From positions 75,185 to 86,689 of the forward strand of contig NVWZ01000011.1 of NCBI GenBank assembly GCA_002746365.1: DNA of 11,505 bases, written 5' to 3'. Each line of letters starts with the position of its first letter. Positions within the stretch are counted from its first letter, which is position 1. The notes under the pieces were generated by a model that had not been told where the DNA came from, ran no database searches, and saw nothing but the letters and a program-made list of their open reading frames with translations. A program made the position numbers and the translations under genes. Shown in pieces: positions 726 to 7,996 of the stretch. The stretch comes from Thiotrichaceae bacterium (GTDB lineage: Bacteria; Pseudomonadota; Gammaproteobacteria; SZUA-229).

Positions 726-756
726 AAAAAAAGCCCAGAACGAAACTGGGCTTTTT
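726..756 (-). terminator. Rho-independent terminator after the TonB receptor gene
   Basis: The inverted repeat AAAAAGCCCAG / CTGGGCTTTTT has a 7-base loop and lies 24 bases beyond the receptor stop codon. On the minus strand the stem is followed by a run of seven T, as expected for intrinsic termination. The A/T tracts flank both sides, so it could also act on the plus strand, but no plus-strand gene approaches it. It separates the receptor from aspA. Confidence 0.85.
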
Positions 757-779: not shown

Positions 780-3269
780 CTAGAATTCATAGTGTGCGGC
801 AAGATACCAGGAGCCACCTTCGTAGTTAGCAGCGGTACGACGTGGATACTGCAGACCCACACTCTGGCGGTTTGCATTAACGCCGTTATCTTCGATTTCA
901 TCAACAAACTCGTCGAAGATATTTGAGCCACCCAGTACAACTCTAAACGCGGGCGTTACATGGTAACCCACTTCCATATCAATGTAGATGACTGGATCAA
1001 TTTCCGCACTCCTACTACCAGGAGCGCCATCGATCGTACCACGCTCATCAAAATGCTTACCGTAATAGTTAGCCCTAACCATCAGATTCCATTCTTCATT
1101 AAAGGACGTATTACTGGTGAGTACAAAACGTGTGTCTGGATAGTTGTTTTCAATATCCTCAACCGTTGCATCACTAACTGGATTAACACCATTCACCTGG
1201 TTTTGATCGGTTACGTCAATATCATTGAAGTTAGCAGCAAGAATCAAGTCAGAACCATCGTAGACATCAAAGCTTGTGCTATACACAAGGTCGATACCTG
1301 ATGACTGGATATCCAATGCATTAGTGTAAAAAGAAATGGTCGGGCCATCAGGATCAGGCGCTCCACCCGGTAAGAATGTAGTAGGAATATTACCAGTACG
1401 ATAAATACGGTCTGAGATATCGATTTGATAAACATCCACCGTCAATGTGGATGACTCACCAAAATCGGTAGTAAGACCCATACTCAGGTTAACTGATGTT
1501 TCCTCCTCCAATTCTTTACCACCAAATGGCGCTGCTGCTGCACTTGTTGGGACAACCAACCCTTCTTCCTGTTGATTACCACTGCCATCAAATGTAGTAA
1601 TAACAGTTGTGATATTAGCCTGCCCTGGTGTTGGCGCATGGAAACCCGTTGATACTGATCCGCGTATTGCTGTCGAATCGTTCACGTTATAACGCGTTGC
1701 CAGTTTACCGTTTATGGTGTCACCAAAGTCTGAGAAATCCTCATAACGCAAAGCCGCTTGCACTAACCAGTCATCGGTGAAATCTTTTTCCACCTCAATG
1801 TATGCAGCATAGTTATCCCTATCGAACTCTCCCGCAGCAGCTGGATTAATACCAGCGAAGCCATTAGAACCCGCGCCAATATAAGATGAAACCTCACCTG
1901 CTTTTGTTTCGTAAGTTTCTTCACGCCACTCAAAACCATACGCAAGGTTAACCGTCTCGGTAATCAATTTGGAGAAGTCCAAATTGACGTTTATTTCTGT
2001 TTGCACATAGGCGCCAACATCAAAGTTGCGTTGTGGAATTACAAATACGCCATTGCCTGGGTCAATTACACCCAACGTTGGGTTAGTCGTATTATGCAAA
2101 GTATAATCCAGCTCGTTCTGTCCATAACCTATACTAAAGTCATAATCCCAACCATTATCTAATTCACCTCTAAGACCCGTAACCAGACTAATATCTATCT
2201 GCTCACCTTGCAGGTACGGTGTATAACCAGTATTCACAATATTGTCAGTAAAGACACCACCCTGGGCAATCGCACTATCTTTGATTGCAGTCAACGTAGA
2301 GTGGCCTGGATTCCTGTAGAAGAAGCGATAAGTACCATCGGTTTCCGCATAGTTACCGAAAAAGTACAGCTCAATATTATCGGTTAGTTCTGCACCACCA
2401 TTCAAGAAGAAGCGTGTTGCGTCTGTTGCAGGCCGACCCCAACTCTGTGCAAACGGTGCATCATCAAATGGGCTATCAGAACCAACACCTATCACACCCG
2501 CATCGATTAATGCCTGCGCATCGGGTCGTTGCACACCACGTGAGAGACCTTCATTATCCACTCTTTCGACAGTCAAATTCAGAAAACCCGTATCACCCAG
2601 CTCGATACCACTGTTGGCGGCCACTTTCCAACTTGATTCGCCTTCATAGAACTGACCATACTGTGTCACTATAGAACCGCCTTCACTGGCATCTTTCATT
2701 ACAAAGTTCATTACGCCTGCGATGGCATCAGAACCGTATTGCGAGGAAGCACCATCACGTAACACATCGACACGTTTCAGCGCGATGCTTGGAATCATAC
2801 CGATGTCTACACCGTGCGCACCATTACCTGCAGCAGGCGCGAAAAAATGCACTAATGCAGAACGATGTCGACGTTTGCCGTTTACTAATACTAAAGTTTG
2901 ATCAGGTGCCAGACCACGTAAAGAAGTCGGTCTGACGAAAGCACTACCATCACCTGTTGCCGGGGTGGCAGTAAAGGAAGGAACAAAGGCTTTTAAGTTA
3001 TCGGTAATATCGACTGCATTACCAAGAGACCTAAACTGTTCGCCAGAAATACTGTCGATTGGAACAGTGGAATCACTCGCAGTGCGTGGTCGCGAACTTC
3101 TGGTACCTAACGATATGACTTCTTCGAGTGTCTCGTTACTGGCAATCTGTGCTGCATCACCTTCGACAGCATAAGCTGTCGAACCAAACATGGCAATTGC
3201 AGAAGCACAGGCCAGTGATATAGGTGTACGTTTCAAGATATAGAATTTATTACTTTCGTACTTCTTCAT
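780..3269 (-). CDS. TonB-dependent outer-membrane receptor (substrate unknown)
   Basis: Outer-membrane beta-barrel transporter that takes up large or scarce ligands using energy passed from the inner membrane by TonB-ExbB-ExbD. The 829-residue protein starts with a signal peptide (positively charged MKKYESNKF, hydrophobic stretch to about residue 34, likely cleavage after AYA). A TonB-box-like ETLEEVISLG follows near 46-55. The plug domain runs to about 195, with SLRGLAPDQTLVLVNGKRRH near 116-135 and RDGASSQYGSDAIAGVMNFV near 171-190. The rest has barrel-type alternating strands and ends in phenylalanine (YLAAHYEF), the usual outer-membrane assembly signal. The ATG at 3269 has GGGGAGA 4 bases upstream. 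The ligand cannot be told from sequence: siderophore, oligopeptide, nucleoside and carbohydrate receptors share this architecture. It lies 245 bases downstream of the acetoacetyl-CoA synthetase gene and may serve the same nutrient; that is inference from proximity only. Confidence 0.93.
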   Translation of the reverse strand: MKKYESNKFYILKRTPISLACASAIAMFGSTAYAVEGDAAQIASNETLEEVISLGTRSSRPRTASDSTVPIDSISGEQFRSLGNAVDITDNLKAFVPSFTATPATGDGSAFVRPTSLRGLAPDQTLVLVNGKRRHRSALVHFFAPAAGNGAHGVDIGMIPSIALKRVDVLRDGASSQYGSDAIAGVMNFVMKDASEGGSIVTQYGQFYEGESSWKVAANSGIELGDTGFLNLTVERVDNEGLSRGVQRPDAQALIDAGVIGVGSDSPFDDAPFAQSWGRPATDATRFFLNGGAELTDNIELYFFGNYAETDGTYRFFYRNPGHSTLTAIKDSAIAQGGVFTDNIVNTGYTPYLQGEQIDISLVTGLRGELDNGWDYDFSIGYGQNELDYTLHNTTNPTLGVIDPGNGVFVIPQRNFDVGAYVQTEINVNLDFSKLITETVNLAYGFEWREETYETKAGEVSSYIGAGSNGFAGINPAAAGEFDRDNYAAYIEVEKDFTDDWLVQAALRYEDFSDFGDTINGKLATRYNVNDSTAIRGSVSTGFHAPTPGQANITTVITTFDGSGNQQEEGLVVPTSAAAAPFGGKELEEETSVNLSMGLTTDFGESSTLTVDVYQIDISDRIYRTGNIPTTFLPGGAPDPDGPTISFYTNALDIQSSGIDLVYSTSFDVYDGSDLILAANFNDIDVTDQNQVNGVNPVSDATVEDIENNYPDTRFVLTSNTSFNEEWNLMVRANYYGKHFDERGTIDGAPGSRSAEIDPVIYIDMEVGYHVTPAFRVVLGGSNIFDEFVDEIEDNGVNANRQSVGLQYPRRTAANYEGGSWYLAAHYEF

Positions 3270-3514
3270 ACTGTCTCCCCTGATTTTCTTTTTAGTAAAC
3301 TATCCAGGATTACATTATCAAGATGTGCAGCAACGCAGTCGTCGCACATCTCCCCAAATAGTTATGCTCACGAACCAAACTGTTCATAGCAAACCATATA
3401 ACAAATAAAGTTTAATAACAACACCTTCAAACCATCTTATTACAAACAACCTCCATCTTTTCTGTTATCTGTATGTATAAATAATCAGACTAATAAACAT
3501 AAATAATTTTGCCT
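3270..3514. other. Intergenic region between acetoacetyl-CoA synthetase and TonB receptor genes
   Basis: These 245 bases hold no open reading frame with coding character. Beyond the leader hairpin (3321-3351) and the receptor's Shine-Dalgarno (3274-3280), the upstream part (about 3360-3514) is AT-rich and should contain the receptor promoter. Several weak TTG- and TAT-containing hexamer pairs occur, but none stands out. I see no convincing terminator after the synthetase stop at 3515, so some read-through into the receptor gene is possible. Confidence 0.5.
3321..3351 (-). promoter_or_regulatory. Leader hairpin ahead of the TonB receptor gene
   Basis: AGATGTGC (3321-3328) and GCACATCT (3344-3351) form a perfect 8-bp inverted repeat. 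On the minus-strand transcript the 15-base interior can extend the stem with CGAC/GTTG (one G-U pair) around a 3-base TGC loop. The result is an almost continuous hairpin about 51 bases before the start codon. It is too far upstream to be the ribosome-binding site and has no U-tract, so it is not an intrinsic terminator as drawn. It could be a protein operator, an RNA-stability element or part of a leader regulator. I recognise no named riboswitch and see no AT-rich Fur-box-like palindrome here. Confidence 0.45.
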
Positions 3515-5476
3515 CTATGTATACAGTTCAGACAAGTCTTTAAAATAATCAAGTGCTTCAGGATTCATCAATGCTTCTTTATTTTTAATCGTTTCCCCAT
3601 GTACCACATCCCTGACTGCCAGCTCAACAATCTTGCCACTTCTTGTTTTTGGGATATCGGGAACCGAAATAATTTTCTCAGGAACATGGCGAGGCGTAGT
3701 ATTGCACCTAATCTGCTGACGAATTTTTTGTTCTAATAAATCATCAAGAACCACACTTTCTGCCAGGCAGACGAAGAGCACGAGCCTGACGTCATCATGC
3801 CATTGCTGACCAATAATTAGCGATTCATTTATTTCGTCTAACTGTTCCACCTGGCGATAGATTTCCGCAGTACCAATACGCACACCACCCGGGTTTAATA
3901 CAGCATCAGAGCGACCATAGATCAGCACGCCGCCACGATCTGTAATTTCAATATAATCACCATGGCACCAGACGTCCGAATATTTTTTAAAATACGCCGC
4001 ATGATATTTAACCCTGCCTTCATCATGCCAGAAGGCTACAGGCATAGATGGAAAAGGTTTTACACAGACCAGCTCACCTTTTTTACCGATCACCGATTCA
4101 GCTTGTTCATCCCACGCCTGCACCGCCATACCTAAGCCACGACATTGCAATTCACCTCTATAGACAGGCAAAACTTCACAACCTAATGCAAAACATGAAA
4201 CGATGTCCGTACCGCCAGAAATAGAAGATAGACAAACTTTCTGCTTGATCGATTGATAAACATAATCAAAAGTTTCAGGTAACAGTGGCGACCCCGTGGA
4301 CAGAATAGTCTTCAGAGAAGATAGGTCATGACTATCAATAGGTGAGAGTTTCTTGTTACGTAAAGCATCGAGGTATTTTGCCGAGACGCCGAATACAGAA
4401 ATCGATTCTTGATCGATCAAATCAAATAATTTTTCAGGTTTAGGATAAAATAGAGCGCCGTCATAAAGTATCAACCTAGAACCCGAAGCCAGTGCTGTAA
4501 TCAACCAGTTCCACATCATCCAGCCACAGGTAGTAGCATAATATATAGTTTCTTTTGCCTGCAGGCCAACGTGCAGACGATGTTCTTTTAAATGCTGCAG
4601 CAATGTACCACCCACGCCATGAACAATACATTTTGGCACTCCAGTCGTACCTGAAGAAAACATAATATATAACGGGTCATTAAAAGCCACATCGACATAT
4701 TCTATTTCATCATCATCGTCGATCGCATGTGTTGATAATATTTCACTAAAAACATTCCATTTTATCTCTGAGCTTATGTCACTATTTAATAATGGCGCTA
4801 GTATCACCTGCTCCACAGTTTCAAGCTGCTCGATGATGGCAATGTTTTTCTCCATTACATCAAATACTTTTCCCGCATAAAAATAGGCATCGGTAACAAA
4901 AATAATTTTTGGTTCGATTTGCGCAAAACGGTCGAGCACCCCCTGCACACCAAAATCAGGTGAGCACGATGACCATACAGCGCCAAGAGAAGTCGTTGCC
5001 AACATGGCGACAACCGTTTCGTTTATATTTGGCAAATAGCCTGCTACCCGATCTCCCTTCACCACACCAGAGTGTCTTAAAAAATTTGCCAGCGCAGCAA
5101 CCTGCTGACTCAGCTGTGCATAAGTCAGTCTTTGAGTTGCGCCATCCTCACGAATAAATACCAAGGCTTCATCATCCGCACCACCCTTACATAGAAGATT
5201 TTTCGCAAAGTTAAGCTTTGCCTGCGGAAAGAATTTAGCCGCTTCCATGTGACCACTCTGCACTAGCACATCATCACCTTTTTCACTGGCAACAACATCG
5301 CAATAAATCCACACCATATCCCAAAAGCTTTCGATTTCTGAAATAGACCAGTCGTAGAGATGGTTATAATTTTCCAGCCGTAAACCATGCTTCTGATTAA
5401 CAGCATGCCGAAAGTTTGAAAGCTGGCTCGACTCAATATCTTTTTCTGCTGGCTGCCAACATTTTATATCAGGCAT
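3515..5476 (-). CDS. aacS: Acetoacetyl-CoA synthetase (acetoacetate-CoA ligase)
   Basis: ATP-dependent ligase that turns acetoacetate and CoA into acetoacetyl-CoA, AMP and pyrophosphate in the cytoplasm. It is an adenylate-forming enzyme of 653 residues, the usual full length for AacS. Visible features are the family-specific N-terminal region with FWDMVWIYCDV near 51-61, the phosphate-binding core FSSGTTGVPK near 273-282 followed by the AacS-typical IVHGVGGTLLQHLKEHRLH, GGTD at 421-424, GDY at 506-508, the hinge YGRSDAVLNPGGVRIGTAE near 520-538, and the catalytic lysine in TRSGK (K615). The C-terminal NPEALDYF is also AacS-like. The ATG at 5476 has AGGAGGA 5 bases upstream, and only 15 bases separate it from the preceding stop, so it is last in the operon. 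Acetoacetate is a co-product of BKACE enzymes, so this enzyme fits as the recovery step. Confidence 0.93.
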   Translation of the reverse strand: MPDIKCWQPAEKDIESSQLSNFRHAVNQKHGLRLENYNHLYDWSISEIESFWDMVWIYCDVVASEKGDDVLVQSGHMEAAKFFPQAKLNFAKNLLCKGGADDEALVFIREDGATQRLTYAQLSQQVAALANFLRHSGVVKGDRVAGYLPNINETVVAMLATTSLGAVWSSCSPDFGVQGVLDRFAQIEPKIIFVTDAYFYAGKVFDVMEKNIAIIEQLETVEQVILAPLLNSDISSEIKWNVFSEILSTHAIDDDDEIEYVDVAFNDPLYIMFSSGTTGVPKCIVHGVGGTLLQHLKEHRLHVGLQAKETIYYATTCGWMMWNWLITALASGSRLILYDGALFYPKPEKLFDLIDQESISVFGVSAKYLDALRNKKLSPIDSHDLSSLKTILSTGSPLLPETFDYVYQSIKQKVCLSSISGGTDIVSCFALGCEVLPVYRGELQCRGLGMAVQAWDEQAESVIGKKGELVCVKPFPSMPVAFWHDEGRVKYHAAYFKKYSDVWCHGDYIEITDRGGVLIYGRSDAVLNPGGVRIGTAEIYRQVEQLDEINESLIIGQQWHDDVRLVLFVCLAESVVLDDLLEQKIRQQIRCNTTPRHVPEKIISVPDIPKTRSGKIVELAVRDVVHGETIKNKEALMNPEALDYFKDLSELYT

Positions 5477-5491
5477 GAAATTCCTCCTGAA

Positions 5492-6304
5492 TCACCATAT
5501 CGGCGTAAGCAGCTTTTGTGTTTGTTCGAACGTCGCCATGGATAAACCCTGCTCTCTTACCGAAGCCACACTGATACTGACAAGCTCAGCATTATCTTTT
5601 ACTTTTTCTTTATCCGGACGCTGCAAATTATTTTCAAAACCCACACGCATATGACCGCCTTCAGCGATTACAGTTTTCATTATTTCCTGTTCTGTATAAC
5701 CAAACGCACAAACCATCCAGCAAGTGAATATTTCGCTAGACTTTACAAACGGCGCTAGCATTTCGATATTAGCGATTATTTTTTTACTGTAGTTACCCAA
5801 AACAAAAAGCACCGGGTATGCTTTGCCTGCTAACACGCCATCGTTAATCCATTTTCTATACTGCAATAAATCATTTTCATCATAGATTATCCATTGCGGC
5901 AAAACCTGCTCTGCACACATCCAACTATCTAGTGATGATATTTCCTGTTCTTTTGCTGCGGCTAATTCTTTAACCGATAACGATACCGCTTGCGGCTTTA
6001 ACTGATAGACCAATTTAATTTGTTGATCCACTTTATACACGCCAGCAGCCTCTGTCGTAACTTGCAGAAACAAGTCATGACCACATGCTTTTCTAATCGC
6101 ATTGATAGCGGCCTGATAAAGCTCAACACTCAATGAATGACTACCTCTGGCATCCCGCACATGAAGATGCATGGCAGTTGCACCCGCTGAAAGCACCGAT
6201 TTTGCAGTTTGTGCCAGCTCAGCAGCTGTAAAAGGAATTTGTTGATGGTCTGATTTATGACGCCGAGCACCATTGGGTGCAACCATACATATCACTAAAC
6301 TCAT
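5492..6304 (-). CDS. BKACE-family (DUF849) beta-keto-acid cleavage enzyme, divergent subgroup
   Basis: BKACE enzymes are TIM-barrel, zinc-dependent enzymes that condense a beta-keto acid with acetyl-CoA and release a shortened acyl-CoA plus acetoacetate; Kce of lysine fermentation is the prototype. The 270-residue protein has the metal-binding HLH at H46 and H48 within MHLHVRD, QVTTEAAG near 81-88, a TIM-barrel-like body and GGHMRVGFENN near 216-226, where R220 and E224 match the conserved arginine and third metal ligand. Compared from memory with Kce, TGAE is NGAR (E14 to R14), STGG is TTEA, and the glutamate is followed by N225 instead of aspartate. This matches a shorter subfamily with no assigned substrate that I know of. 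Its ATG overlaps the aminotransferase stop (ATGA), indicating translational coupling, and acetoacetyl-CoA synthetase follows. Databases would probably name it 3-keto-5-aminohexanoate cleavage protein; that substrate is not supported here. Confidence 0.88.
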   Translation of the reverse strand: MSLVICMVAPNGARRHKSDHQQIPFTAAELAQTAKSVLSAGATAMHLHVRDARGSHSLSVELYQAAINAIRKACGHDLFLQVTTEAAGVYKVDQQIKLVYQLKPQAVSLSVKELAAAKEQEISSLDSWMCAEQVLPQWIIYDENDLLQYRKWINDGVLAGKAYPVLFVLGNYSKKIIANIEMLAPFVKSSEIFTCWMVCAFGYTEQEIMKTVIAEGGHMRVGFENNLQRPDKEKVKDNAELVSISVASVREQGLSMATFEQTQKLLTPIW

Positions 6305-7641
6305 TGGTTAACGGTCTCATTAGCAATGACGGAAAACAATGTTTCAACGATTTGTTCCAGATGCGATTGTTCGACGATAAACGGTGGCGCTAATAAGATA
6401 TGATCCCCTTTTTGACCATCGACAGTCCCACCCATCGGATAACACATAAGTCCCTGCTGCATCGAACCTGCCTTTATTTTTTTATGCAGCTCTAGAGTCG
6501 CATCAAAAGGCTCTTTTGTTTCTCTGTCTGCCACAAGTTCAATACCGACAAACAAACCACGACCGCGAATATCACCGACATACGGATGCTCATCGAATGC
6601 TTCATGAAGCATCACCTGAAGCGCATGCCCTTGTTTTTTTACATTTTCCAACAGGCCCAATTCACGGATTTCCTGTTGCGCTGCAAGACCGGCGACACAA
6701 GCTAGAACATGCCCATTATAAGTATGACCATGCTGAAAATAACCCCGACCAGATTCGATAGCCGAAGCGATTTTATTACTGACAAAAACTGCACCCAACG
6801 GTTGATAGCCAGCAGCGATACCTTTAGCCACCGTCTGTATATCTGCGACGATACCTTCCTGCTCACAGGCGTGTAAGGTTCCAGTCCGCCCCATGCCGCA
6901 CATAACTTCATCGAGTATTAACAGCACGCCGTGTGCATCACATATCTCACGTACGCGTTTAAAATAACCGGGAACGGCCGTCATCGCACCAGCAGTCGCC
7001 CCCACAACTGTCTCGGCGATAAACGCCATAACATTCTCTTCACCCAGTTCAAGAATGCTGATTTCCAGTTCATCAGCGACACGTAAACCATACTCTTCTG
7101 CCGTCTCATCGGCACGCTGATCGCGATAGGCATAACACGGCGAAATAAGATTTGCATGCATCAAAAGCGGTGCGAACGGTTCACGACGCCACATATTACC
7201 GCCGACAGAAAGTGCGCCAAGCGTGTTACCGTGATAACTCTGTCGCCTGGCGATAACCAAATGACGATTGCTCTGACCAATTTCAAGATAATATTGGCGA
7301 GCGATTTTCAAAGCGGCCTCTACCGCCTCTGATCCGCCAGAAACAAAATAAATATTGCTATAATGGTCTGAACCTGCTGCGTTCTGGATTAACTCATCAG
7401 CTAATCTCTCCATAGGTTCCGTACTAAAAAATCCAGAATGGATGTATGAGAGCTTTGTTATCTGCTCGGTCAGGGCGTTTTGTATACGTGCATTGTTATA
7501 TCCAAGGCAACAAACTGCGGCACCGCCACAGGCATCGAGGTACGCTTTACCCTCACTATCATAGACATAAACGCCTTCACCGGTAACGGCCTGCGGATAG
7601 TTCGCGCGCATCGAACGATGCATGACTGAAGACTTGCTCAA
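6301..7641 (-). CDS. Class III PLP-dependent aminotransferase
   Basis: Fold-type I, class III (omega or beta-amino) transaminase of 446 residues, a normal family length. It moves an amino group, often from an amine not in the alpha position, to a keto acid such as pyruvate or 2-oxoglutarate. Visible landmarks are GGSEA near 102-106 (cofactor phosphate), YHGNT near 136-140, LDEVMCGMGRTG near 243-254 with D244 for the pyridine nitrogen, the Schiff-base lysine K273 in VAKGIAAGYQPLGAV, HTYNGH near 306-311, and RGRGLFVGIEL near 359-369. The start is TTG (7641): GGAAG (7649-7653) lies 7 bases upstream, while the ATG at codon 7 has no Shine-Dalgarno. Starting at codon 7 would give MHRS, close to family N-termini as I recall them, so this stays open. 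It overlaps the preceding small open reading frame and the following BKACE gene by 4 bases each. It plausibly supplies the keto acid the BKACE enzyme cleaves. Substrate unknown. Confidence 0.92.
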   Translation of the reverse strand: MSKSSVMHRSMRANYPQAVTGEGVYVYDSEGKAYLDACGGAAVCCLGYNNARIQNALTEQITKLSYIHSGFFSTEPMERLADELIQNAAGSDHYSNIYFVSGGSEAVEAALKIARQYYLEIGQSNRHLVIARRQSYHGNTLGALSVGGNMWRREPFAPLLMHANLISPCYAYRDQRADETAEEYGLRVADELEISILELGEENVMAFIAETVVGATAGAMTAVPGYFKRVREICDAHGVLLILDEVMCGMGRTGTLHACEQEGIVADIQTVAKGIAAGYQPLGAVFVSNKIASAIESGRGYFQHGHTYNGHVLACVAGLAAQQEIRELGLLENVKKQGHALQVMLHEAFDEHPYVGDIRGRGLFVGIELVADRETKEPFDATLELHKKIKAGSMQQGLMCYPMGGTVDGQKGDHILLAPPFIVEQSHLEQIVETLFSVIANETVNQ

Positions 7642-7763
7642 GAGAGCACTTCCGACATTGGTTTCACCAAACCCTTCATTGCATTAATAATCCACATAAC
7701 AATGCCATACAACAGTAATATGCGATGTAACAGTAACGCTGAAAAATTGTTATAAAATTTCAT
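7638..7763 (-). CDS. Small single-span membrane peptide heading the catabolic operon
   Basis: A 41-codon open reading frame, which I do not recognise as a family, starts at the ATG at 7763 with AAGG (7769-7772) 5 bases upstream. It ends in a TGA that overlaps the aminotransferase TTG start (TTGA). The peptide begins MKFYNNFSALLLHRIL, has a hydrophobic span of about residues 9-28 containing one histidine and one arginine near its start (LLLYGIVMWIINAM follows), and ends in the polar KGLVKPMSEVLS. An in-frame ATG at 7778 would add five residues but lacks a good Shine-Dalgarno. The TATAAG/TTGCAG promoter lies just upstream, so it would be the first gene of the operon. It may be a real micro-membrane protein, a leader that sets aminotransferase translation by coupling, or chance coding. 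The clean overlap and the ribosome-binding site favour real translation. Confidence 0.5.
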   Translation of the reverse strand: MKFYNNFSALLLHRILLLYGIVMWIINAMKGLVKPMSEVLS

Positions 7764-7861: not shown

Positions 7862-7996
7862 ATGGCTGAAATCGAAGTGGTAATTGCAAGTGCTTGCCGC
7901 ACCTCGATTAGTTCACTACAAAGCACTTTGTTAAAACAGTCAGGACTCTCGGTAGGCGACATTGCAGCAGCGATGAGCGTTGAGCTAAAAAATTAA
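7862..7996 (+). pseudogene. Truncated acetyl-CoA acetyltransferase (thiolase) N-terminal remnant
   Basis: A 44-codon plus-strand open reading frame with a strong Shine-Dalgarno (AAGGAGAT, 5 bases before the ATG) starts MAEIEVVIASACRT. That closely matches the first strand of thiolases of the PhaA/AtoB type (typically DVVIVSAARTAIG). The next residues, ending SVGDIAAAMSVELKN, can be aligned to the following 'SAxDLGAxxIxEALKR' segment, after which a TAA stops the frame. A working thiolase has about 390 residues, and the nucleophilic cysteine near residue 90 and the C-terminal His/Cys pair are absent, so the product cannot be an active thiolase. Acetoacetyl-CoA thiolysis would be the natural step after the acetoacetyl-CoA synthetase of the divergent operon, which supports a decayed partner gene. 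It could instead be an unrelated short peptide; the similarity rests on about 14 well-matched residues. Confidence 0.5.

Follow-up and report, generated by a model that had tools for sequence, protein, structure and literature searches.

What does a three-gene operon do when its middle gene belongs to a known enzyme family but encodes a protein without that family's catalytic base? This question is raised by an 11,505-nucleotide stretch of Thiotrichaceae bacterium DNA (assembly GCA_002746365.1, contig NVWZ01000011.1, positions 75,185 to 86,689; hereafter, the window). Its minus strand carries consecutive genes for a class III (PF00202) transaminase (6301..7641), a DUF849 (PF05853) protein (5492..6304) and an acetoacetyl-coenzyme A (CoA) synthetase, AacS (3515..5476). 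An earlier note on this DNA had read the three as one pathway, in which the transaminase makes a beta-keto acid from a beta-amino acid, the DUF849 protein cleaves it with acetyl-CoA as a beta-keto acid cleavage enzyme (BKACE), and AacS activates the released acetoacetate. The gene order, the 4-base overlap of the transaminase and DUF849 genes (6301-6304) and the 15-base gap between the DUF849 and AacS genes (5477-5491) were found as described there. However, the operon end given as 7763 lies outside the transaminase frame, whose longest form starts at 7641 with TTG; a possible alternative start is the in-frame ATG at approximately 7623 (M of MHRS), and an ATG near 7659 belongs to a different frame that stops soon after. 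As for function, we consider it plausible, with somewhat less than even confidence, that the operon is a catabolic unit that would convert a beta-amino diacid to 3-oxoglutarate, this by decarboxylation to acetoacetate, and acetoacetate to acetoacetyl-CoA.

The family assignments of the three proteins were clear. The transaminase scored 703 bits against NF005685 (cut-off 485), which places it in the NCBIfam PRK07483 group, a group with no defined substrate; its K273 and other polar residues are nearly invariant among 47 linked relatives. AacS scored 885.2 bits against TIGR01217 (equivalog cut-off 520.9), and its closest solved sequence is 4wd1, an acetoacetate-CoA ligase. The DUF849 protein belongs to PF05853 by its Pfam score (182.6 bits against a cut-off of 24.8), its TIM-barrel fold and its His-His-Glu zinc site. 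Its AlphaFold model (predicted local distance difference test score, pLDDT, 95.6) was nearest to that of Kce, and the zinc ligands H46, H48 and E224, together with R220, are kept in the window protein and in its clade. The fold is capable of other chemistry, as a related cis-epoxysuccinate hydrolase shows.

The catalytic residues were then compared between 213 clade rows, which include near-copies such as P0008 and L110, and 12 canonical rows. At the position of Kce D231, the clade has Asn in 213/213 rows (N225 in the window), and all 12 canonical rows have Asp. Similarly, the position of E171 in BKACE15 (E143 in Kce) is Ile in every clade row (I139 in the window) and Glu in every canonical row; both Glu and Asp are kept in nine of nine solved family sequences compared. 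E171 is the tested catalytic base of the Paracoccus enzyme BKACE15, whose activity is abolished by E171L, according to PMC11961710. A third change concerns Lys254 of BsfD, which is described in PMC12871164 as contacting the 3′-phosphate of CoA. This position is Asp, Asn or Glu in 194/213 rows of the clade; in the canonical set, 9/12 rows have Lys or Arg. Because the base is lost throughout the clade, the family name does not license acetyl-CoA-dependent cleavage, and the view that the middle enzyme uses acetyl-CoA as BKACE does was not borne out. Judged from its residues, the middle protein would not be a normal BKACE, and it probably departs from the textbook chemistry.

The canonical outcome might nevertheless be reached with another base (E85, E113 or R220), so that a beta-keto acid and acetyl-CoA would yield acetoacetate and an acyl-CoA two carbons shorter, which is the route of the earlier note. 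E85 and E113 are fixed in the clade and either could be a new base, which counts against our proposal of decarboxylation. However, the equivalents of both E171 and D231 are gone from all clade rows, acidic residues prevail at the CoA-phosphate contact, and the window operon has no acyl-CoA-handling gene. We therefore regard the canonical outcome as doubtful.

The genomic setting of the clade was analyzed in 93 distinct loci, which are not all independent (ten are titled Thalassospira and twelve Achromobacter). The homologue list comprised the best 120 of 5910 and the named-genome scan the best 80 of 497 loci; a transaminase relative scoring above 130 bits and lying at most 700 bases from the DUF849 gene was counted as linked. 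A window-type transaminase was linked in 49/93 loci and lay farther off in two. In at least 13 loci, the partner was instead a 3-hydroxyacyl-CoA-dehydrogenase-type gene, this count being a lower bound because the greedy frame caller picks some shadow frames in G+C-rich loci; neither type of partner was called in 29. On the clade tree, the transaminase label required 8 changes compared with a shuffled mean of 23.5. With 49/93 loci, the linkage exceeds chance. It is conserved across several bacterial families, and the view that the genes form one functional unit was supported. The expectation of linkage in related genomes held only in part. Within the window's own family, the DUF849 gene was present in just 2 of 54 genomes, namely that of the window and its congener G017 (an order-level search returned the identical 54 genomes). 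Farther away, however, the pair is common; among 369 genomes sampled from the class, 13 carried the clade.

Two side observations were made among these loci. L023, which bears the title Mesoflavibacter (Bacteroidota), falls among loci of Alphaproteobacteria on the tree (support 100/99), and a mislabelled assembly or a transfer is possible. In addition, nitrile hydratase alpha/beta clusters (identified in L073) lie near the DUF849 gene, with no transaminase, in L017, L030, L054, L073, L078 and L080.

Linkage to AacS is rarer. Besides the window, AacS directly adjoins the DUF849 gene in four of the 93 loci: L110 (G017), L008 (Cocleimonas), L099 (G406) and L106 (G150). Its identity was confirmed by family scores in the last three, and in L106 just 174 contig bases remain upstream, so that any transaminase there would be out of view. 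In L099, the annotated neighbours are hisB-type and pseudouridine-synthase genes with no apparent connection to the operon, so the three genes could be enough. That AacS adjoins the DUF849 gene both here and in these four loci points to acetoacetate as a likely product, which the earlier note, too, had the middle enzyme release. Independent origins of the AacS linkage were considered and set aside, since its 4 changes for 5 rows were equalled or undercut in 40 of 500 shuffles and the tree contains long branches. Genome co-occurrence was likewise given little weight as proof of acetoacetate. In the class sample, AacS was present in 13/13 clade-positive genomes and 68/356 others (Fisher p 1.2e-9); a PrpE-like control ligase, defined by a 640-bit line picked after the list was seen, behaved similarly (10/13 and 59/356, p 5e-6), and the AacS co-occurrence is therefore not specific. 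Both ligases may simply follow catabolically rich genomes.

Two further explanations bear on this product. The DUF849 protein might perform another reaction on the transamination product, such as hydrolysis, with acetoacetate, should it arise at all, confined to the lineages that have AacS linked; the adjacency of AacS to the DUF849 gene, found in four loci as well as the window, argues for acetoacetate instead, and we consider this explanation unlikely. Alternatively, the transaminase would make acetoacetate directly from 3-aminobutyrate for activation by AacS, leaving the DUF849 gene a side role. This chemistry is simple and AacS scores far above its equivalog cut-off, but the strongly conserved pair is transaminase and DUF849, not transaminase and AacS, and the middle gene would be unexplained, which makes this explanation very improbable.

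The substrate was approached through the position of Kce E14, a residue that we take to hold the substrate amine. The clade has Arg here in 187/213 rows, Tyr in 25 and Lys in one. This Arg suits a second carboxylate and speaks against a positively charged substrate of the beta-lysine type, one of the candidates put forward earlier. No evidence was found in favour of another, beta-leucine, whereas beta-glutamate, also on that list, is supported as a candidate and now appears the favoured substrate. In the 49 transaminase-adjacent loci, position 14 is Arg in 46, Tyr in two and Lys in one. It was rejected as a strict marker of a transaminase partner, since 3 of the 13 dehydrogenase-partner loci (L020, L038, L039, L041, L042, L046, L047, L056, L060, L063, L069, L072 and L079) carry Arg too; the other 10 have Tyr. 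These loci look as if a beta-hydroxy acid were used in place of the beta-amino acid. In L100, a dimethylglycine-dehydrogenase-like fusion of flavin adenine dinucleotide (FAD) and GcvT domains (2365-4770; relatives by clustering in L026 and L105) precedes the transaminase-DUF849 pair and suggests an N-methylated substrate in that branch. No glutamate aminomutase neighbour was identified by a crude cysteine-motif scan of the locus frames, which gave two hits (L055 and L101) and included no family search.

In the route that we propose, the class III transaminase would act on a beta-amino acid. The likeliest kind is a diacid, for example beta-glutamate (3-aminoglutarate), whose deamination would give the beta-keto acid 3-oxoglutarate. 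With the BKACE base lost, acetoacetate would be reached most simply by decarboxylating 3-oxoglutarate: the DUF849 protein would hold this compound at its zinc and release CO2, with no acetyl-CoA-dependent cleavage. AacS would then convert acetoacetate to acetoacetyl-CoA, which a general thiolase could split. A TonB-dependent receptor encoded 245 bases downstream of AacS on the same strand (780..3269) is the probable uptake part and may import the substrate or a precursor.

Uptake partners vary between lineages. Relatives of the TonB receptor lie beside clade members in L110 (73%), L006, L014 and L016 (57-58%) and L015 (55%). TAXI-type receptor and DctM transporter clusters were each found in 20 of the 81 clustered loci, and tricarboxylate-transporter parts occur in L012 and, as judged from clustering, in L019. 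Both the TRAP and the tricarboxylate systems fit carboxylate substrates; the ABC transporter genes near the pair in L100, together with its dimethylglycine-dehydrogenase-like gene, suit an N-methylated amine.

Besides the possible new base, several points weigh against the proposed route. The DUF849 gene does not always have the same partner: at least 13 loci have a dehydrogenase-type gene, and L100 and related loci a dimethylglycine-dehydrogenase-like gene before the transaminase, which suggests that some branches of the clade use other substrates. A TonB receptor would be unusual for a molecule as small as beta-glutamate. Furthermore, only 4/93 loci have AacS beside the DUF849 gene, the AacS label is not clustered on the tree beyond the shuffles, and the genome co-occurrence with AacS lacks specificity.

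The result matters because a sizeable clade now carries the names 'beta-keto acid cleavage' or '3-keto-5-aminohexanoate cleavage' without the base needed in the characterised enzyme. The conserved transaminase partner, plus AacS in some lineages, makes the function of this clade specifically and cheaply testable. According to PMC8269262, beta-glutamic acid stands at 730 mM in Nitrosopumilus maritimus, ahead of every other identified metabolite there, and its abundance was higher at depth in each of the two depth profiles. If the beta-glutamate reading is true, the operon is a candidate sink for this archaeal osmolyte. No beta-glutamate breakdown pathway was found in the open-licence literature searched, and no paper was recognised as describing the operon in a search mostly outside subscription journals.

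The flanks of the operon were also inspected. A terminator-like hairpin follows the TonB receptor gene (728..756, minus strand; an 11-pair stem and a T run), a consensus match only; the scan of the window overall found 8 such sites versus 6.0 expected. The promoter scan of the window was uninformative, with 12 sites versus 16.7 expected. Upstream, a TauE/SafE-family permease gene (PF01925; 8303..9079, minus strand) shows no sign of belonging to the operon. Also upstream, a divergent 44-residue plus-strand frame (7862-7996, MAEIEVVIASACRTSI...) has a good-looking ribosome site; by eye, with no search made, we took it to resemble the start of a thiolase. The divergent upstream gene in G017 is threonine synthase, and the idea of a thiolase remnant was therefore dropped.

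Finally, the window protein was compared with known systems. E143, D231 and E14 of Kce correspond to I139, N225 and R14 in the window protein. Likewise, BKACE15 of Paracoccus denitrificans (PDB 8rio, 8rip and 9hnf) has the tested base E171 where the window protein has Ile. PMC4922564 records DUF849 group G6 as not BKACE and assigns to it decarboxylation of beta-ketoglutarate; this is also the activity proposed for the window protein, and the likeness is one of proposed activity. BsfD of flavophos biosynthesis (PDB 9zsc) is an example, described in PMC12871164, of a family member whose chemistry has diverged from that of BKACE; however, BsfD keeps Glu and Asp and has Phe for Tyr, and the window protein shows the reverse. 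The deoxyribonate oxidation pathway, as set out in PMC6365646, follows the same logic, in that a beta-keto acid is made and split and acetoacetate is recovered via acetoacetyl-CoA. That pathway uses a dehydrogenase where the window operon has a transaminase, and its proposed cleavage is acetyl-CoA-dependent.
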